This document shows, in pieces, positions 1,825 to 13,637 of a stretch of DNA of 26,324 bases; within the stretch, counting starts at the first letter, position 1; each line of letters opens with the position of its first letter. The stretch is taken from IMG/VR virus record IMGVR_UViG_3300042898_005599, positions 1 to 26,324 of that record; one strand, given 5' to 3'. The position numbers and the translations under genes were made by a program. Source of the stretch: a virus. The notes beneath the pieces were generated by a model. That model saw only the letters and a program-made list of their open reading frames with translations, did no database searches and was not told the DNA's origin.

Positions 1825-2400
1825 TTACTCGCGCCACAACACTTCGTAACGCTTGATTGCTGACTTGTCCAAGTGCAACTCATAATCTGATTCCGTGTAG
1901 CCAAGGTTGCCACAATACTGCTCCCACCAATCCCACCTCCAGCGACCGAACAACGCATGCGGGACATCGTGAATCCGACACCATTCATCTGGGATACCAC
2001 AAGCCTTTAAGACTCCCTGCGGGACCGGACCGAGTGTGATGCTGATATGTGTGATTGCTACAGGCACTTGCCCCGCGCTCTCAGCACAAATTGCTAACTG
2101 CTCCCACGGGCAACCGAAGGCGTCAAGGTCAATCAGGTCAAAGGCTGACAAATCTAAGCCCTTCATCACTTTACGGTTATCACCCATAATCACATTTGCA
2201 GAAATGTATTTCTTTTTGTCAATGCCAAGAACTATCACTTCAACATCTGGCAACTTTTCCTGCACTGTCCGCCAAACCGTGCCAGACCCAGCGAACGCAT
2301 CAAGGATATGCACCTTCTCTTTGCCGATGCGCTGTAACGCTTCCACCCTTAGCCTGACCTTTGTCGGCAGGTGGCTGTTTTCGTTGTAGATATGCTTCAC
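1825..2400 (-). CDS. SAM-dependent methyltransferase with Trm1-like DLDAFG motif
   Basis: A 191-residue Rossmann-type methyltransferase. The SAM-binding motif I is LDAFAGSGT (residues 33-41). An acidic motif in VLGIDKKK follows at about 60, then a GDNRKVM segment, and a catalytic-position motif FDLIDLDAFGCPWEQLA (about 87-103). In DNA adenine methylases this position reads DPPY; in the tRNA guanine-N2 enzymes of the Trm1 family it reads D-x-DPFGSP. The DLDAFGCP here is closer to Trm1. The product could methylate tRNA or another nucleic acid; the substrate is not evident. The start is GTG at 2400, with AGGG four bases upstream, ten bases after the ParB-like gene. The protein is shorter than full-length Trm1, so only the catalytic fold is shared. 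Confidence 0.75.
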   Translation of the reverse strand: MKHIYNENSHLPTKVRLRVEALQRIGKEKVHILDAFAGSGTVWRTVQEKLPDVEVIVLGIDKKKYISANVIMGDNRKVMKGLDLSAFDLIDLDAFGCPWEQLAICAESAGQVPVAITHISITLGPVPQGVLKACGIPDEWCRIHDVPHALFGRWRWDWWEQYCGNLGYTESDYELHLDKSAIKRYEVLWRE

Positions 2401-2410
2401 AAAGCCCTAA

Positions 2411-2971
2411 TCAATTCGTCGCCGATGCGACATCCACTCCATCAATGCTGTTCAATGCCTCGCCCAGAATCATGCTGACGCGCCCTTGCTCACTAATAGG
2501 TGCCTTAACTAGCCAATAACAGTTGTGAAACGGCTCTAAATTGCGTTTTCTCTTAGCATTCGGCTCATCGGTGACATCAGCAAGCAGTTTGTCAAGGTCG
2601 TGGGCATCAAAGCCTGTGCCTGCCAGCGTCTCTTCTGAGATTACTTCCCTGAGCAACTTGGTCAACTCATCATTGTCGTATGTCGCGAAGTCGGAGGTTC
2701 TGTTGTCCGCCAACAGGATTTTCTTTGCTTGCGCGTCATCCACATCAATCACCATGCACGGGATAGTGGTCATGCCGACGCGTTTCGCCGCCTGCCAACG
2801 GTGATTGCCCGCCAAAATAAACATGGTGGACTTCTGCACCACCAGCGAACCGTAAAAGCCGTTGACCTTAATGCTTTCCACAATGGCGTCCACATTGCCT
2901 TTACGCGGATTAGCAGGGTGAGGCTTCAACTTGCCTATTGCTATTAACTCTGTTTTGCCTTCATCAGTCAT
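2411..2971 (-). CDS. ParB/Srx-like domain protein
   Basis: A 186-residue protein. The N-terminal half matches the ParB N-terminal (ParB/sulfiredoxin) fold: LKPHPANPRKGN (15-26), an IVESIKVNGFYGSLVV helix-strand (30-45), the AGNHRWQAAKRVG box (54-66; GNHR corresponds to the GERR/GxxR box) and TTIPCMVIDVDDAQAKKILLADNR. The family includes CTP-dependent partition clamps, nucleases and phage proteins that sit beside DNA methylases. There is no ParB-type central HTH, so plasmid-like partition is unlikely. The C-terminal part (about 115-186) is not recognised. The gene starts five bases after the WhiB stop, with AGGGTG before the ATG, and is followed by two methyltransferase genes. That context favours a role in DNA modification or regulation. 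Confidence 0.8.
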   Translation of the reverse strand: MTDEGKTELIAIGKLKPHPANPRKGNVDAIVESIKVNGFYGSLVVQKSTMFILAGNHRWQAAKRVGMTTIPCMVIDVDDAQAKKILLADNRTSDFATYDNDELTKLLREVISEETLAGTGFDAHDLDKLLADVTDEPNAKRKRNLEPFHNCYWLVKAPISEQGRVSMILGEALNSIDGVDVASATN

Positions 2972-2975
2972 CGCA

Positions 2976-3452
2976 TCACCCTAACATCGCGTTGAACCCG
3001 ATATACGCGCTCTCCAGAGTCTCGTACACCTCAACCTCCGCGCCATTCTTGACTGCCACCCATTCACTGCCGTGCCAAGTTCTTTCAGTGAATCGTTGCC
3101 ATAACTCACAATTTGATGCCTGCTCAATGACTGTCCAATGCCCCTGTGAGGGTTGCTCTACCCTCGTTGGTATTACCACAGGCGCGGGCTTTGCTACAAC
3201 GCTGACGCCCCGCCTCACGACGCTTGGTGCCATTCTTTGTGCGCGCTCTCGCTCGTTTAGCCCGCCCCAAATTCCGCTGTCCTCGTCCAACCCTGCAAGG
3301 AAACATTCGTCAACGACAACGCATCCACCACAGACCGCTTTGGCTTTTGCTTCACGCCTTTTACGGTCGCCATACTTCTCGCCCTCCACGGGAAAGAACA
3401 GAGCAGTCTCACTGGATTTGCAGTTTGCTTCTTCTTGCCAGTTTTTCACCAC
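2976..3452 (-). CDS. WhiB-family iron-sulfur transcription factor with C-terminal extension
   Basis: Residues 5-70 are a WhiB domain. WQEEANC gives Cys11, and CGGC plus DEC give Cys41, Cys44 and Cys50, the four ligands of the [4Fe-4S] cluster. SGIWGGLNERER (59-70) is the conserved G(V/I)WGG turn, with a basic/polar stretch after it. The family is confined to actinobacteria and their phages. A phage WhiB from mycobacteriophage TM4 is known to interfere with a host WhiB and cause superinfection exclusion. Residues about 90-158 form an extra segment with HWTVIEQASNCELWQRF that is not part of a standard WhiB protein. The start must be GTG 3452 or 3449, because an in-frame stop lies one codon upstream; no good Shine-Dalgarno is seen. 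The gene sits 25 bases after the glutaminase gene. Confidence 0.93.
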   Translation of the reverse strand: MVKNWQEEANCKSSETALFFPVEGEKYGDRKRREAKAKAVCGGCVVVDECFLAGLDEDSGIWGGLNERERAQRMAPSVVRRGVSVVAKPAPVVIPTRVEQPSQGHWTVIEQASNCELWQRFTERTWHGSEWVAVKNGAEVEVYETLESAYIGFNAMLG

Positions 3453-3477: not shown

Positions 3478-4239
3478 TTAAACAAAAAGTTCGCGCGTGA
3501 CCCCAAGATGTTTCATCGTCATCAAGTCCACCATCTCAACAACGCGACCATTGAGCACCTGCATGTAGCGGTACTCTGGCACGCTCCACGATGACCGCAA
3601 AACCAAACCAGCATCAGCCACCGCCTTGCGAAGCGAGTTTTCAGTAGAAGCAAACACAAATGAATCGTTCTGTGTCCACCCGACTACTAACGGAGAACCC
3701 GTCACGCGCGCCACATGCAATACATCAGGCTTGTCGGTACGAATCCAGCCAAGAGAAGCCCTGCCTTGTAGCGAGGTTAATTCTTCCAATGGCTCATCAC
3801 TCAGACTCAGCAAATGAAATATCGCTTCCGAATCCACTTCACCAACGCGAGGTGCCCCGTAGTACTCAATGATTTCATCATCATTAGCAATGTGACCGTT
3901 GTGAACACCCACGATAGTTGGAATAACAATCGGGTGATTGTTGTCGTTATTGTTGGGGCTACCTTTGGTCGCGTACCGCGTATGCAGAATGGCAGTGCCA
4001 CAAGTGTTGGGGATGTCTGACAGATGCTCCACAAACTCCCGTGCTGTGATGTCATCCTTCATGTAGAACAACGCATCTTCAGACTTGCCGTGTTCGTCAG
4101 TGGCGCTATCTGCCCACGCCACGCCTGTCGCGTCAGTGCCCCTGTTCATAATTTCCAGCAACAATCTTTTAGTAAGAGTCCTGCTTTTGTGAAGCCCTTT
4201 GTCTGCTTCCGATAATGAGAATCCTGCTATGCCACACAT
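3478..4239 (-). CDS. Stand-alone class II glutamine amidotransferase (Ntn hydrolase)
   Basis: A 253-residue protein beginning MCGIAGF, so Cys2 becomes the N-terminal nucleophile after Met removal. Family motifs follow in order: NRGTDATG (32-39), HTRYATKG (86-93), VHNGHIAN (112-119) and VDSEAIFHLL (135-144). These are the glutamine-binding and oxyanion-hole elements known from GlmS, PurF and asparagine synthetase. The domain hydrolyses glutamine to glutamate and ammonia. No synthetase domain follows, so the ammonia must go to a separate partner. The obvious candidate is the amidoligase encoded one base upstream in the same unit. AGGGG lies nine bases before the ATG. The length matches an isolated glutaminase domain, and no active-site residue appears to be missing. 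Confidence 0.92.
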   Translation of the reverse strand: MCGIAGFSLSEADKGLHKSRTLTKRLLLEIMNRGTDATGVAWADSATDEHGKSEDALFYMKDDITAREFVEHLSDIPNTCGTAILHTRYATKGSPNNNDNNHPIVIPTIVGVHNGHIANDDEIIEYYGAPRVGEVDSEAIFHLLSLSDEPLEELTSLQGRASLGWIRTDKPDVLHVARVTGSPLVVGWTQNDSFVFASTENSLRKAVADAGLVLRSSWSVPEYRYMQVLNGRVVEMVDLMTMKHLGVTRELFV

Positions 4240-4240
4240 T

Positions 4241-5293
4241 TTATCGTGCCCCTATTTCTGTTTTACGCCGACTTAAATAGTCTGCTGATTGTTTGCGGAT
4301 AAGTCTTTTAGTTTGAAGGACTGACAACACCTCATCGGCGTCGGTCATGCCCAACATTGGAGTCATTGACGCGCTTAGTTCAAATAGACCAAGCAGGTAA
4401 TGAATCCAGTGCACTATCTTTGAGCCGTTCAATGTGCCCTGATGAAGTCTGACTTCAAAAGTTCCTATCTTGCTGAATGGCTTAATGTTGAGGCTCATCA
4501 TTTTGTCTGCTGTTGATGTTGAGGTTCCGCGTAGCATCATTGTGCTGTACTCGTTAATGGTGCTCGCGCTCATGTGTCGCGAGTACATTCCGTTCCGTCT
4601 GCTCGGTGCCACGAAACCTTGGTTAATTTCTTGTAGCGCACCCCAGTTTGTGACGATTGATGCCCGTTGCATTTTGGAAAGATGAGCCACACCGATGTGA
4701 ACATGAAGCCCACAAGTTACATCAGCAGTTCCACCCAAGGCTGAAATTTCTTTGACGATGGCTCGTATCTCTGGCATTTTTTCAACTGTCAAGATTGGTG
4801 AGACAACCTCGCCACCGCGACCGTAAATGTCACCGCGTCGTTGCGATACTGAAGAATCCTCTTCAATTTTCCACTGGTTGTAAGTAGCGCCGTCTGCGAT
4901 TGTCTCGTGGCAGGTCATACAAGTTTTACCGTGGTAGGGGAACAGGTGGACATGGTACCCAAGCAATCTGGTTAGAGCGACCGCGACTTCTGCGCGTTGA
5001 GTGTTTTTGAATTCAATCTCAATACCGAATGTCCATTGACCGACTGTGCCAAGCCCTTCGTTTCGTCGTGCCTGCCAAGTTCTCAGCGCAACCTCGCGAC
5101 CAGCAAGAAGTCTCCGCTCCGATGGTGGCGCTACTAGGGAAGGCAAACCGTTTCGTTGCGCGTATCGTTGAGCCTGAGCGCGAACCGTTGATTGGCTCTG
5201 GCTTGCTTCAAGTGCAATCGCTTGCCATGTCCATCCCGCGCGCCTGCGCTCATAAGACACCATTTCGTTTTCACGATTATTACTTACTGGCAT
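4241..5293 (-). CDS. Amidoligase (COOH-NH2 ligase fold) with N-terminal HTH
   Basis: A 350-residue protein with two parts. Residues about 12-50 look like a helix-turn-helix (YERRRAGWTWQAIA, then STVRAQAQRYAQRNG). From residue 87 the signature of the putative amidoligase family appears: TFGIEIEF (88-95), KIEEDSSVSQ (142-151), GGEVVSPIL (160-168) and CGLHVHIG (194-201). FEVRLHQGTLNG comes later. This fold is related to glutamine synthetase and is predicted to use ATP and a carboxylate to form amide or peptide bonds. A CMTCHE motif (Cys125, Cys128, His129) lies in the loop before the EEDSS box and may bind metal. The ATG has AGGGGGC three bases upstream and a promoter at 5317-5345. The neighbouring class II glutaminase can supply ammonia. 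The substrate is unknown: peptidoglycan, protein or DNA base are all open. Confidence 0.85.
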   Translation of the reverse strand: MPVSNNRENEMVSYERRRAGWTWQAIALEASQSQSTVRAQAQRYAQRNGLPSLVAPPSERRLLAGREVALRTWQARRNEGLGTVGQWTFGIEIEFKNTQRAEVAVALTRLLGYHVHLFPYHGKTCMTCHETIADGATYNQWKIEEDSSVSQRRGDIYGRGGEVVSPILTVEKMPEIRAIVKEISALGGTADVTCGLHVHIGVAHLSKMQRASIVTNWGALQEINQGFVAPSRRNGMYSRHMSASTINEYSTMMLRGTSTSTADKMMSLNIKPFSKIGTFEVRLHQGTLNGSKIVHWIHYLLGLFELSASMTPMLGMTDADEVLSVLQTKRLIRKQSADYLSRRKTEIGAR

Positions 5294-5316
5294 ATTGCCC
5301 CCTGTCCTCTGATGTC

Positions 5317-5345
5317 AGAATACCCGACAACTAAACCCGTGTCAA
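5317..5345 (-). promoter_or_regulatory. Predicted sigma70-like promoter of the amidoligase-glutaminase unit
   Basis: On the minus strand TTGACA (5345-5340) is a perfect -35, followed after 17 bases by TATTCT (5322-5317). The -35 lies inside the last codons of the zincin gene (stop at 5331). The implied transcription start is near 5310, leaving a leader of roughly 17 bases with AGGGGGC before the amidoligase ATG at 5293. GACA and TGTC arms ten bases apart lie within the promoter and could be an operator. Confidence 0.6.
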
Positions 5346-5795
5346 GTCATCTGTTGTGATGTGCAAAATCTCACCCGTGCCAACCAGCCGTGCAAAAGTT
5401 CTCGGCGCTACCGCGTAATACAAACTCAGGCTCCACGCGCGAGCGTCCACCTCGTAACCACCCGACCGATGCTCTGACCCCTTGGACGCATCGTAGAAAG
5501 ACAGCGCCCGTCCCTGCCTTTGCATGGCGTGGCGAAACTCATGGAGCGTTGTCACAATGCTCGGCTTAGGAATGAAGATTGCGTTATCCCGCGGGTAGTA
5601 GCAACCAGCGCCGACCGTTGAAGAAATTGTCAAAGACGGCGTGACCACCCCATAAATGTCAGACACTTCCCTGAGCCAAGTTTCCAGTTTTATTACCTTT
5701 AAGGCGTCTGGCATGTTTCCGAACCCACGCATCAACTGGCGCGTTTCCGCGACAGCCCTGCGGTCAAAATGTTTGAACACTTTATGGTATTTCAT
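5331..5795 (-). CDS. Zincin-type metallopeptidase-like protein (HEFRH)
   Basis: A 154-residue protein with TTLHEFRHAMQ at residues 82-92. His85, Glu86 and His89 form an HExxH zinc motif on a predicted helix. YEVDARAW (114-121) follows at the distance where ImmA/IrrE-type peptidases carry their third, acidic ligand (Glu115). CYYPRDNAIFIPKPS just before the helix resembles the strand-turn preceding HExxH in that superfamily. The role is probably proteolytic, or a zincin scaffold. Phage and host ImmA proteins usually cleave repressors, but no repressor gene is seen next to this one. The ATG overlaps the preceding stop as TAATG, and the 3' end carries the -35 of the amidoligase promoter. The subfamily is uncertain. 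Confidence 0.7.
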   Translation of the reverse strand: MKYHKVFKHFDRRAVAETRQLMRGFGNMPDALKVIKLETWLREVSDIYGVVTPSLTISSTVGAGCYYPRDNAIFIPKPSIVTTLHEFRHAMQRQGRALSFYDASKGSEHRSGGYEVDARAWSLSLYYAVAPRTFARLVGTGEILHITTDDLTRV

Positions 5796-8997: not shown

Positions 8998-9780
8998 TTA
9001 AAAAGGTTCGTCGGTGGGGTCAGCGAAAATTTCCCGCTGTGGATTTTGGTTTGGTTTCATTGCAATCAAATCACCGATAAAAGCAGAAGCGTCCTTGCCT
9101 GACAAATCAGACAAAGCAGACACTTTGCGACCGAGCAACTCAGAAGCCATAGCCATAGGGTCTAGCACACCCTTGTCTGCAATCATCTTGCGAATCAAAG
9201 TCATCTGCTTCTCCGAAGGTGGATACTTCTGGGTGCTTGCCGTCGGAGCAACCTTCGTTGCCACAGGCACTTCACTCAAGCCTTCAAAAGCATCTCTGAG
9301 GTAGTCCTCATCCTCACCCGCGCCACGAACAGGAGCCTGACGAGTCGCTGAAGCCTTCCTCACTGGAGCATCAGACCAATCGCCACCGCGCTCGGCTTCC
9401 CCCTTTTGCCAAAGCGCCAAACAAACGCCGAAACGCATACTGGCATTCCTCAAAAAGTCGCCGATAATTTCCTTTTCGTATTCAGGCTTATCTGCTCTAA
9501 CCGAACCGACACCAATCATGGATTTGCCATGAATCGTCATGCGTCCCCACATTGTTGCCATGCCATTCTCCACATGAATCATTGGACGACCGTCGCGAAT
9601 CTCCAACGGCTCCCACGACCACAAAGGGTCAACCTGAATCAAAATTTCCGTGATGGCACCGTGCCCTACAAAGGACAAAGTAACTCCACCCTTGGGCAAC
9701 TTGCCCACAATCTTCGGGTCTGGAGTGCGATACTTCTCCAAAACTTCCCGCAACAATTCTGCTGTTATCTCATCCATCAT
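8998..9780 (-). CDS. Single-strand DNA annealing protein (Rad52/Sak/Erf-like)
   Basis: A 260-residue protein. The N-terminal half carries the pattern of phage annealing recombinases: GVTLSFVGHGAITEILIQVD (32-51), PLWSWEPLEIRDG, a strand TMWGRMTIHGKSMIGVGSV, and IGDFLRNASMRFGVCLALWQ KGE. These proteins pair complementary single strands made by a partner exonuclease. The neighbouring YqaJ-type gene is that partner, and the two reading frames overlap. The middle is a disordered Ala/Pro-rich linker. The C-terminal part (about 185-260; PPSEKQMTLIRKMIADKGVL) is a small helical tail often found on such proteins. GGAG precedes the ATG by four bases; a second ATG follows directly. The exact superfamily (Rad52/Sak versus Erf) cannot be fixed by eye. 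Confidence 0.8.
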   Translation of the reverse strand: MMDEITAELLREVLEKYRTPDPKIVGKLPKGGVTLSFVGHGAITEILIQVDPLWSWEPLEIRDGRPMIHVENGMATMWGRMTIHGKSMIGVGSVRADKPEYEKEIIGDFLRNASMRFGVCLALWQKGEAERGGDWSDAPVRKASATRQAPVRGAGEDEDYLRDAFEGLSEVPVATKVAPTASTQKYPPSEKQMTLIRKMIADKGVLDPMAMASELLGRKVSALSDLSGKDASAFIGDLIAMKPNQNPQREIFADPTDEPF

Positions 9781-10724
9781 TATTCTCCCTTTGTTTCTTT
9801 CATCAAACGCATCGTCCGATACGGCGCGCCCTTTTTCATATACTCGGCAACCAAATCAGGGTGCTCCGTCTTTAGCCTTTTAGTGTCCAAAGATTCTCTG
9901 CCCATAGTCTGCTTCCACGAGACAACACTTTGCCCGTTGATAGTACCAACCTCAGCATCTTTCAATAACCGCGCTAACGCATCCTTCGCCTGCTTTTCCT
10001 GACCTTCTGCCACAGAGCGAGCCTCCCGCGCGATATCTAAACTAGCAATCCACAGACGAGCCTCCTCATCCAATTCAACAGTGCCCTTTACTTCTGTGTA
10101 CGCCCGCGAAATGTCATCGGCGCTCATCTCGTTAATGAGGTGTTCCAACCCGCGCTGAGAATCCACAACTTCGCCAAACAACTCAGACTCTTCTACTAGC
10201 CTTTCTAAAGCGCCATCCATCTGAGGTAACTCCACGAGAGAAAACACTTGACGGCGGTCTAAGACAACAAAGAACACGGGGCAACCAGTCACCAACTGTT
10301 GTGCCCAACCCTGCCAACGCCATTCCATTGGCAAATCACTTGACTCATCTACTGAGTAACGAGCAGTAGTTTTTGCTTCAACGACAACCGTAGGTGCCAA
10401 AGCATCATCAACTCCATCAGCAGAGATAACAAAGCGACCGCCTTGGTACTGCCATTCTGGAGTAACTAAATCAATGCCCATCTCTTCAGAAGCAAACTGC
10501 AAACACGCTGGTTCCAGAAGGTTCCCTCTACGCATCGCTGGGCTTGTCTCGCGAATGACTGGCATTTCCATCTTGTCAAAATACAAATCGGCGCGTGAGC
10601 GGTACGGCGAAGTCCCCATCATCACAGGAGCATCTGAAGCCCCGAACACTGCACGACCATCAACTTTCCAACGCTGATTCAGCCATTCAAGAGAGCCGTG
10701 AGTTGGTTTTGGTAATAATTTCAT
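9780..10724 (-). CDS. YqaJ-type viral exonuclease (lambda Exo-like)
   Basis: About 314 residues. Motifs of the PD-(D/E)XK nuclease family YqaJ appear in order: FGASDAPVMMGTSPY (28-41), MRRGNLLEPACLQF (65-78), FVISADGVDD (99-108) and VVVEAKTT (114-121). Asp104, Glu117 and Lys119 are the likely metal-binding and catalytic residues, with Glu72 in the GNLLEP box (numbering from ATG 10727). It would resect double-stranded ends 5' to 3' for the annealing protein encoded next. Of the two adjacent ATGs, 10724 is listed because GGGG is five bases away from it but only two from 10727. The C-terminal region from about 215 is helical and charged. This is the first gene after the promoter at 10794-10822. 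Confidence 0.88.
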   Translation of the reverse strand: MKLLPKPTHGSLEWLNQRWKVDGRAVFGASDAPVMMGTSPYRSRADLYFDKMEMPVIRETSPAMRRGNLLEPACLQFASEEMGIDLVTPEWQYQGGRFVISADGVDDALAPTVVVEAKTTARYSVDESSDLPMEWRWQGWAQQLVTGCPVFFVVLDRRQVFSLVELPQMDGALERLVEESELFGEVVDSQRGLEHLINEMSADDISRAYTEVKGTVELDEEARLWIASLDIAREARSVAEGQEKQAKDALARLLKDAEVGTINGQSVVSWKQTMGRESLDTKRLKTEHPDLVAEYMKKGAPYRTMRLMKETKGE

Positions 10725-10739
10725 CATGTCCCCATTCTG

Positions 10740-10793: not shown

Positions 10794-10822
10794 ACTGTAC
10801 CTAGTTAAAGGCGCTCTGTCAA
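10794..10822 (-). promoter_or_regulatory. Predicted sigma70-like promoter of the recombination/replication operon
   Basis: On the minus strand TTGACA (10822-10817) is followed after 17 bases by TACAGT (10799-10794). The -35 lies in the last codons of the proteasome-like gene. The implied leader to the exonuclease start is about 60 bases and contains the palindrome at 10740-10757. Confidence 0.58.
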
Positions 10823-11425
10823 GTTTTTAGTTTGAACAAACAAAACATACGGCGAACCCGTGTACGCATCAAAGGTAGAAGCACTGGCAAGACCCTTCAT
10901 CAGGCATTTCTTTGCCGAATCCACAGTGAACTTGCGAGGTCGCGTAGCCTGCATCGCCCCCAACGCGTATTGCGCGCCAGAACCAACAGCGTAAATACCG
11001 TCATCATCCGACGCCCACGAGTAATCCCCGTCAACTATGTACACGACAGCGTTGACCACAACCACCACCGTGGAATCGTGCTCTGCCACATGCGAACCTT
11101 TCGCGCTATCTGGGCGAGAATAACCGTGCTCTTCAAAGCAAGCGCGTAAAGCAGGAACAAACTTAACCGTAATAAAACGGTCTAACGCTGTCCCATCCAA
11201 ACTAGGAAAAGGCTTCGGCGGGGCAAACGCATGATGCAACAGGTTAATTGCGCGAACATCTCCAGCCGCGGCAAGCAGGTACCGTCCGACTTCCGCGACC
11301 TTGGACGAACCTTCCCTCATCGTTGACCGTTGAGAAGCAAAACCAGACTCGTCAATGGTGCTCAAACGCGAGTCAACACCGACAACGGCAAACCCGTCAC
11401 CCTGAATAGCCACAATCGTTGTCAT
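10805..11425 (-). CDS. Proteasome-beta/HslV-like Ntn hydrolase
   Basis: A 206-residue protein starting MTTIVAIQGDGFAVVGVDSR. After removal of Met the first residue is Thr, and Asp falls exactly at mature position 17, as in proteasome beta subunits and HslV (TTIV...D17). A hydrophobic strand and turn YLLAAAGDVRAI (49-60) and the YAVGSGAQYALGAMQA block (145-160) match the serine/glycine loop and helix of the fold. The usual Lys33 may be Lys42 here, in a longer loop. No propeptide is encoded, so activation would need only methionine removal, as in HslV. It would be an ATP-independent or host-ATPase-assisted protease; no AAA partner gene is visible. The ATG overlaps the metallophosphoesterase stop. 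A head-maturation protease role is unlikely this far from any head genes. Confidence 0.82.
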   Translation of the reverse strand: MTTIVAIQGDGFAVVGVDSRLSTIDESGFASQRSTMREGSSKVAEVGRYLLAAAGDVRAINLLHHAFAPPKPFPSLDGTALDRFITVKFVPALRACFEEHGYSRPDSAKGSHVAEHDSTVVVVVNAVVYIVDGDYSWASDDDGIYAVGSGAQYALGAMQATRPRKFTVDSAKKCLMKGLASASTFDAYTGSPYVLFVQTKNLTERL

Positions 11426-13070: not shown

Positions 13071-13637
13071 TTAGGAAGCAGAAGGCGACGCATCGCCCAA
13101 AACATACTGCCAGTGCCAAGCCTCAAACTCTGGAGACTTTGGATTATCACTCTGCAAGTAAAACCCGAAACGAGGAGCGTTGGCGCACATCCAAGCCATC
13201 GCCTTGTTCGCACTGCCCAAACCGACTAACTCGCCTTTTTTGCCTTCAACCGCTAGGTCAATAGCCAAACCCCAACCATGATTGGAACCGCTCTTGCCTG
13301 TTGGGTCTGGAGACGCCGATGGAGACTTCCCCTTCTTGAGAAACCAAGTCTTGCCTTCAAATTGGCGTGTCACCTGTGGCTTGCGCCCTTGGTCAACTAA
13401 CGCATAACGGTCACGAAACATAGCGAGTTGGTCATCAAACGAGCGATAATCGCCGATATTGCGGAGCGTAATGCCCGCTTTCTGCGCTTCGTCGTACATC
13501 GCGTTGAAAGACACCGAAGCGCCTTTCCACATTTTTCCGCCAGTTTTGACGCTCGCGAGAACTTTAGGACTTAACTTGCCGTTGATTTGCTGGCTCAACG
13601 CATCGGGCAAAACAAGTTTACGGTAAGGGTATTTCAT
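13071..13637 (-). CDS. Endolysin, M15/VanY-type peptidase
   Basis: A 188-residue protein. SGSNHGWGLAIDLA (116-129) provides His120 and Asp127, and FEAWHWQYV (171-179) provides Glu172 and His175. These are the zinc ligands and catalytic residue of the M15 D-alanyl-D-alanine carboxypeptidase/L-Ala-D-Glu peptidase family. IGDYRSFDDQLAMFRDRY (61-78) is the arginine-containing substrate-side motif. It would cut peptidoglycan cross-links or stems at lysis. There is no signal peptide, so release should depend on a holin. Membrane proteins lie on both sides of the gene. A short Ser/Pro insert (KKGKSPSASPDPTGKSG) precedes the active site. The ATG is two bases after the upstream stop. No separate cell-wall-binding domain is visible. 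Confidence 0.88.
   Translation of the reverse strand: MKYPYRKLVLPDALSQQINGKLSPKVLASVKTGGKMWKGASVSFNAMYDEAQKAGITLRNIGDYRSFDDQLAMFRDRYALVDQGRKPQVTRQFEGKTWFLKKGKSPSASPDPTGKSGSNHGWGLAIDLAVEGKKGELVGLGSANKAMAWMCANAPRFGFYLQSDNPKSPEFEAWHWQYVLGDASPSAS

Follow-up and report, generated by a model that had tools for sequence, protein, structure and literature searches.

The window analysed here is a 26,324-base virus fragment from IMG/VR (record IMGVR_UViG_3300042898_005599, positions 1-26,324). Its main genes lie on the minus strand; genes for the tape measure and the tail occupy the right end. The features that concern us are listed below in window coordinates.

1825-2400, minus strand: methyltransferase-like protein (PF02005, TRM1, E=0.0045, below the cut-off); same place in relatives (cluster 6)
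2411-2971, minus strand: ParB-like protein (PF02195, E=5.9e-11; phrog_723); same place in relatives (cluster 3)
2976-3452, minus strand: WhiB-like regulator (PF02467, E=1.7e-16); same place in relatives (cluster 2)
3478-4239, minus strand: stand-alone class II glutamine amidotransferase (glutaminase) domain, 253 aa, MCGI start, predicted Cys2 nucleophile (PF13522, phrog_14519)
4241-5293, minus strand: amidoligase (Amidoligase_2, GS/GCS2-like fold), 350 aa (Pfam PF12224)
4910-4954, minus strand: H-x-H-x4-Y-H-x3-C-x2-C insert of the amidoligase, residues 114-128 (present in 23 zincin-linked representatives)
5317-5345, minus strand: amidoligase promoter TTGACA-17-TATTCT (position conserved across 22 loci)
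5331-5795, minus strand: small HExxH metallopeptidase-like (zincin) protein, 154 aa, with H85-E-F-R-H89 and E115 (AF2 model, conserved motifs)
8998-9780: single-strand annealing protein, a recombination gene
9780-10727: RecE-like exonuclease, a recombination gene
10805-11425, minus strand: Proteasome/HslV-like N-terminal-nucleophile peptidase
13071-13637: VanY/M15-type endolysin (Pfam/ORF scan of the window)

The amidoligase and glutaminase ORFs are one base apart, the stop codon of the former occupying 4243-4241 and the ATG of the latter lying at 4239. An earlier sequence-only reading of this DNA had given the coordinates, strand, motifs and one-base gap of the pair correctly, as judged by ORF and Pfam/PHROG matches. 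Neighbours among the glutaminase, WhiB, ParB-like and methyltransferase-like ORFs are separated by 4-25 nt, in an order that is the same in relatives, and the transcription unit probably continues from the glutaminase into the other three genes. The WhiB gene downstream of the pair suggests an actinobacterial host, and the virus probably infects actinobacteria. Small early-type genes lie between the recombination genes and the amidoligase-glutaminase block. The methyltransferase-like protein, which follows ParB in relatives, carries VLDAFAGSG-like and DLIDLDAFG motifs and is weakly TRM1-like; it had no PHROGs match at E<=0.001. The phage-borne proteasome-like peptidase starts with MTTI and matches PF00227 (E=4.2e-07) and phrog_1040 (E=6e-20).

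The amidoligase matched Amidoligase_2 (PF12224) at E=1.9e-26 with 93.9 bits against a cut-off of 22, and the motifs FGIEIEF, GGEVVSP and CGLHVHIG were confirmed in the ORF. A single-sequence search of viral contigs with this protein gave no matches, and relatives were gathered with a narrow alignment as query. Ten columns were invariant across 28 aligned amidoligases, E92, E94, D146, E162, G195, H197, H199, E280 and R282 among them. The best Foldseek matches of the AF2 model (pLDDT 89.6) were glutamine synthetase and YbdK at E 1.7e-6 to 3e-5, with TM scores of only 0.36-0.45; matches to PafA and Dop were weaker (E about 1e-3). No solved Amidoligase_2 structure was found by sequence search. Profile, glutamine-synthetase-like fold of the model and conserved Glu, His and Arg residues of active-site type all place the protein among the predicted members of Amidoligase_2, for which ATP-dependent amide bond formation is a well-supported prediction.

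Ahead of the ligase domain, residues about 7-47 form three helices (7-18, 23-30 and 34-47) in the confident AF2 model. This upholds the helix-turn-helix (HTH) proposed in the sequence-only reading, although the N-terminus of the window protein matched no Pfam HTH model. Among relatives, the N-terminus of L010 passes the Sigma70_r4_2 cut-off and that of L015 matches HTH_23/HTH_18 below the cut-off. The HTH is carried by the amidoligases of Arthrobacter phages, by most of the window's subgroup and by the branches L015/L016, L021/L023 and L079/L097; a stretch resembling an HTH also lies ahead of the Porphyromonas phage enzyme (L043). Neither L026-L034 nor the LUZ24-type enzyme L004 has the HTH. 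No description of an HTH on these many actinophage-type amidoligases was found in the literature reached. As in BirA, the amidoligase may use its HTH to control a promoter; autoregulation would explain the HTH no less well than a DNA substrate would.

The glutaminase matched GATase_6 (PF13522) at E=2.6e-14 and phrog_14519, 'glutamine amidotransferase', at E=8e-49, and its profile matched the GlmS glutaminase domain (1xff) at E=1.1e-31. Its HTRYAT, HNG and VDSE motifs align with HTRWAT, HNG and TDTE of GlmS; C2, R88, N114-G115 and D136 all have aligned counterparts there. In 29 glutaminases H86, R88, N100, H102-P103, H113-N114-G115 and D136-S137-E138 were invariant and Met1-Cys2 nearly so. The profile, N-terminal Cys, Arg, Asn-Gly oxyanion hole and Asp are those expected of a class II glutamine amidotransferase, which the protein is accordingly predicted to be. 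Catalytic residues are thus intact in relatives of both partners (28 amidoligases and 29 glutaminases). The cellular relatives of the glutaminase, in Gaiellaceae, Thermoleophilia and Ignavibacteria MAGs, mostly have no amidoligase nearby.

Linkage of the two genes and their promoter

A search of IMG/VR viral contigs with the glutaminase as query gave 37 loci, and a same-strand amidoligase lay close to the glutaminase in 35 of them. The two exceptions were L031, which is cut by the contig end, and L038, which has no amidoligase. All 14 glutaminase-bearing Arthrobacter phages carry the amidoligase immediately before the glutaminase, so the two genes are normally linked. In close relatives they overlap by 1 base or are 1-3 bases apart, and in the window's branch a tightly spaced glutaminase was present in every locus uncut by a contig end.

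Approached from the amidoligase, the linkage is looser. No glutaminase was present within 4 kb on the same strand in 29 of 87 amidoligase clusters (90% identity), and the true share is probably higher because the sample was partly collected via the glutaminase. The amidoligase family is therefore not dependent on a glutaminase and need not draw its ammonia from a partner. Fusions of the two domains were looked for and none was found. Pairwise distances of the two families correlated weakly (Spearman 0.20 over 51 loci), too weakly to argue either way. Other arrangements were also seen. Two different amidoligases flank a single glutaminase in L036 (8105-12783), L039 (8064-12717) and L024 (9008-13258), and one flanking amidoligase in L036/L037 has a long N-terminal extension of about 360 aa. 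A contig binned with an actinobacterium (L126, 591-3969; JAIBBP010000027.1, Microthrixaceae MAG), possibly phage-derived, has the order cyclotransferase, amidoligase, amidoligase, glutaminase.

The -35 hexamer of the promoter before the amidoligase falls within the 3'-terminal part of the upstream ORF (5331-5795). Scanning the first 12 kb of the window alone gave 10 promoter-like sites compared to 9.2 ± 3.0 in shuffles, which is chance level. In the 110 nt before the amidoligase of 22 subgroup loci, however, the best site scored a mean of 9.5/12 compared to 6.3 in dinucleotide shuffles (highest shuffled mean 7.3), while control 110-nt regions before the glutaminase (5.1) and before the upstream gene (5.9) were at the null. 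In most relatives the stretch that separates the amidoligase from the upstream gene contains hexamers of the type TTGAC(A/T)-17/18-TA(T/C)A(A/C)T. This recurrence at the same place in related loci, above shuffles, indicates that the promoter is real. It had been described as the pair's own; its position is conserved, but it is one of several phage promoters, since the same type repeats at several sites per phage. The element is therefore a phage promoter class, and its role as a private operator of the HTH-amidoligase was rejected. The spacer, too, is conserved in part (TTGAC..GG..TAGT...TATA.T) in L007, L010, L047 and L051, each of which carries the promoter at several sites.

The metallopeptidase-like neighbour and the amidoligase insert

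Directly upstream of the amidoligase lies a conserved metallopeptidase-like gene that the sequence-only reading had missed. Its product was modelled at a pLDDT of 89.4, and HEFRH and a downstream E-x-DAR-x-WSLS are kept among the zincins of the subgroup. Pfam gave only weak DUF6782/DUF3920 matches below the cut-off, and the best Foldseek matches, IrrE/PprI/ImmA-like proteins, were non-significant (E>=0.2). The protein thus has the HExxH and downstream Glu ligand of an IrrE/ImmA-like metallopeptidase but lacks a significant profile or fold match to one. Homology to Laroye gp97, Ottawa gp64 and an Alcaligenes phage 'peptidase' was tested and rejected; gp97 and gp64 are cyclotransferase-like.

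Of the 87 amidoligase clusters, 22 have the HExxH form as neighbour of the amidoligase. Beyond these, three distant phages have a zincin homologue without HExxH and with a long acidic tail, located between the glutaminase and a cyclotransferase (L032, 10952-11884; L033, 11522-12391; L034, 11494-12312). A search with the zincin as query, which reaches close relatives only, gave 27 loci, and an amidoligase was present in the analysed stretch of all except L155 and L163, where the analysed sequence ends close to the zincin; in L164 the amidoligase is about 3.4 kb away. All 23 zincin-linked representatives have the H-x-H...C-x2-C insert in the amidoligase, and no other amidoligase examined has it. 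To judge from its His and Cys residues, the insert is a possible metal-binding site. Amidoligases with an HExxH zincin as neighbour fall into a single clade (100/99 support), which requires one change compared to 17.6 with shuffled labels. Because the group is monophyletic, the co-occurrence of zincin and insert counts as one evolutionary event and not as 23. Zincin and insert persist even where identity among the amidoligases drops to about 30%, and four of the amidoligases concerned lack the HTH. No description of this subgroup was found in the literature reached, which covers Iyer 2009 through papers that cite it.

Other phages have a gamma-glutamyl cyclotransferase (GGCT/AIG2) in the neighbourhood. 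It precedes the amidoligase in Laroye, Ottawa and Kovu and follows the glutaminase in L026-L034; it was not seen in the window or in 13 close records, which may be fragments. Zincin and cyclotransferase are locally exclusive (Fisher p=0.0009, for loci that are not phylogenetically independent). Strict replacement of one by the other is weakened by three zincin-linked phages that carry a cyclotransferase far away in the genome.

Two views of the zincin were considered. It may well be a stable neighbour outside the module, an ImmA/IrrE-like phage regulator, and this possibility, which we hold open short of favouring it, is compatible with any reading of the target. The conserved promoter separates the zincin from the amidoligase, the best structural matches are of IrrE/PprI type, though non-significant, and the co-occurrence with the insert traces to the single event noted above. 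Against a bystander stand the adjacency in all evaluable subgroup loci, down to amidoligases of about 30% identity, and the restriction of the insert to the amidoligases of this subgroup. Alternatively, three parts would make up a distinct phage system, a reversible amidation switch on a host target: an insert-bearing, mostly HTH-carrying amidoligase, its glutaminase and a zinc peptidase dedicated to removing or maturing the mark set by the ligase, with the peptidase in the neighbouring place held elsewhere by the cyclotransferase. We consider such a switch improbable.

Predicted function and candidate targets

A glutamine-dependent ligase of two subunits is the likely product of the pair. The glutaminase would hydrolyse glutamine via its N-terminal Cys2 to yield ammonia, and the GS/GCS2-like amidoligase would use ATP to convert a carboxylate to an acyl phosphate and would then couple the ammonia to this activated group. 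Arguing for this are the family and fold of both proteins, the GlmS-aligned residues of the glutaminase and the invariant active-site-type residues of the amidoligase. The two-component amidation enzyme of the sequence-only reading is strengthened by the adjacency (35/37 and 14/14 loci), the tight spacing and the intact residues; the transfer of ammonia and the formation of a complex are inferred. Two of the outcomes which that reading had named as refuting it, homologues that are usually unlinked and relatives with lost catalytic residues, were checked for and did not occur. More tentatively, we propose that this ligase acts early and most likely on a carboxylate of a peptidoglycan precursor. 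The pair would be switched on early from the phage promoter together with the WhiB, ParB-like and methyltransferase-like genes, and the most likely target would be a carboxylate (D-iso-Glu or meso-DAP) in the stem peptide of host peptidoglycan or in the cytosolic precursor. The phage might benefit from a wall changed against superinfection or tuned for its own peptidase-type endolysin. The choice of peptidoglycan draws on published prediction and on plausibility. The VanY/M15-type endolysin of the window and the L-Ala-D-Glu peptidase endolysin of Laroye (PMC5513430) are of kinds that act on stem peptides, which favours a wall target; against it, the hosts of pair-bearing phages span actinobacteria to Gram-negatives, and an HTH would be unexpected of a wall enzyme unless it is autoregulating.

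The cell wall, a host protein and a DNA base had been named as candidate targets in the sequence-only reading; the wall precursor stays the favourite, followed by a protein or peptide tag, a small molecule and, least, a DNA base. Under tagging, which we think unlikely, a PafA/Dop-resembling amidoligase would modify a side chain of a host protein through a gamma-glutamyl or amide bond, and a peptidase or cyclotransferase would remove or mature the mark. The Foldseek matches to PafA and Dop point this way, but that likeness is the one shared by the whole GS superfamily (E about 1e-3). An HExxH peptidase-like gene adjoins the amidoligase in the window's subgroup, and a gamma-glutamyl cyclotransferase lies near it in Laroye, Ottawa, Kovu, Bacillus phage 055SW001 and others, also in keeping with a removable tag. 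In small-molecule chemistry, a further reading, the ligase would convert an amine to its gamma-glutamyl amide, and a cyclotransferase or peptidase would later take the group off, as in butirosin-type protection, the glutaminase supplying only glutamate or ammonia. For this somewhat less likely reading speak the Bacillus phage amidoligase that has a cyclotransferase and no glutaminase, the 29 of 87 clusters that lack a glutaminase and the GS/GCS2-like fold, whereas the window's branch always has its tightly spaced glutaminase and no cyclotransferase nearby.

Hypermodification of DNA, with the HTH bringing the ligase to DNA or with the carboxylate of a precursor nucleotide amidated, would serve to evade restriction. 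Many members have the N-terminal HTH, and ParB-like and methyltransferase-like genes lie downstream. Two phages, L021 and L023 (records G017 and G019), both from a related branch, have QueC about 5 kb from their HTH-amidoligase/glutaminase pair, which suggests 7-deazaguanine chemistry in that branch. QueC is absent from the other 21 of 23 records, however, and thymidylate synthase from all 23, including contigs of 47-90 kb (contigs may be fragments), and many amidoligase-glutaminase pairs have no HTH. We regard a DNA target as very unlikely.

Comparison with known phage and cellular systems

The sequence-only reading was right that such pairs had been predicted in phages with no settled substrate, but it understated the point, as the arrangement is a published cassette (PMC5498523, PMC11945000, PMC10580990). 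Amidoligase and GAT-II, often with GGCT and ATP-grasp, form the phage 'peptidoglycan modification cassette' predicted by Iyer et al. 2009 and Hardies et al. 2013 (as cited in PMC5498523, PMC11945000 and PMC10580990). Amidoligase, GAT-II, COOH-NH2 ligase, ATP-grasp and GGCT are found in LUZ24-like, phiEco32- and RIO-1-like phages (PMC3890496, PMC5498523, PMC11945000, PMC10580990), bearers including phiEco32, RIO-1, HP1, LUZ24, PaP3 and tf (PMC5498523, PMC11945000, PMC10580990), and gene content varies among the published members (PMC11945000). Wider cassettes were noted in LUZ24-like, phiEco32, RIO-1, OM43 and Laroye phages. Pseudoalteromonas phage HP1 has a homologous cassette whose expression starts immediately upon infection (PMC7082346). 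No experimental substrate or peptidoglycan change was found in the literature reached on the cassette. The window shares with the cassette the proximity of Amidoligase_2 to a class II glutamine amidotransferase among early genes. It differs in that no ATP-grasp, COOH-NH2 ligase (PF14395) or GGCT Pfam match was present among the scanned ORFs of this fragment, in the HTH, insert and zincin neighbour that are additional here, and in a glutaminase that lacks the extended C-terminus seen in the 470-aa Alcaligenes phage protein.

Closer in layout are the Arthrobacter phages. The cyclotransferase and amidoligase of Laroye were reported in 2017 (PMC5513430), and its genes are gp97 (AIG2-like), gp98 (amidoligase) and gp99 (glutamine amidotransferase) (PMC5513430 and GenBank). 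Laroye, Salgado, Ottawa and Kovu share with the window the order of the two genes, the HTH on the amidoligase and a glutaminase 36-42% identical. In contrast, Laroye, Ottawa and Kovu have a gamma-glutamyl cyclotransferase upstream instead of the HExxH gene, and the amidoligases of the Arthrobacter phages are only 26-31% identical to that of the window and lack the insert.

The pair is a widespread phage enzyme module. The 2009 prediction of wall modification could be tested in a simple way on its minimal two-gene version, which has cultivable relatives in Arthrobacter phages such as Laroye, and the zincin-linked subgroup, with its insert and peptidase, adds a specific, testable clue that is the added value of this analysis. 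In MurT/GatD and LtsA/AsnB-type peptidoglycan amidation, a glutaminase and a synthetase amidate a carboxylate of the wall precursor. The window pair is like these systems in the working of glutaminase with synthetase, and unlike them in its synthetase, whose fold is unrelated to theirs; GatD, moreover, is a class I glutaminase. The pair is thus of a previously predicted kind, and the window holds its minimal two-gene form, in a distinct zincin-linked subgroup.
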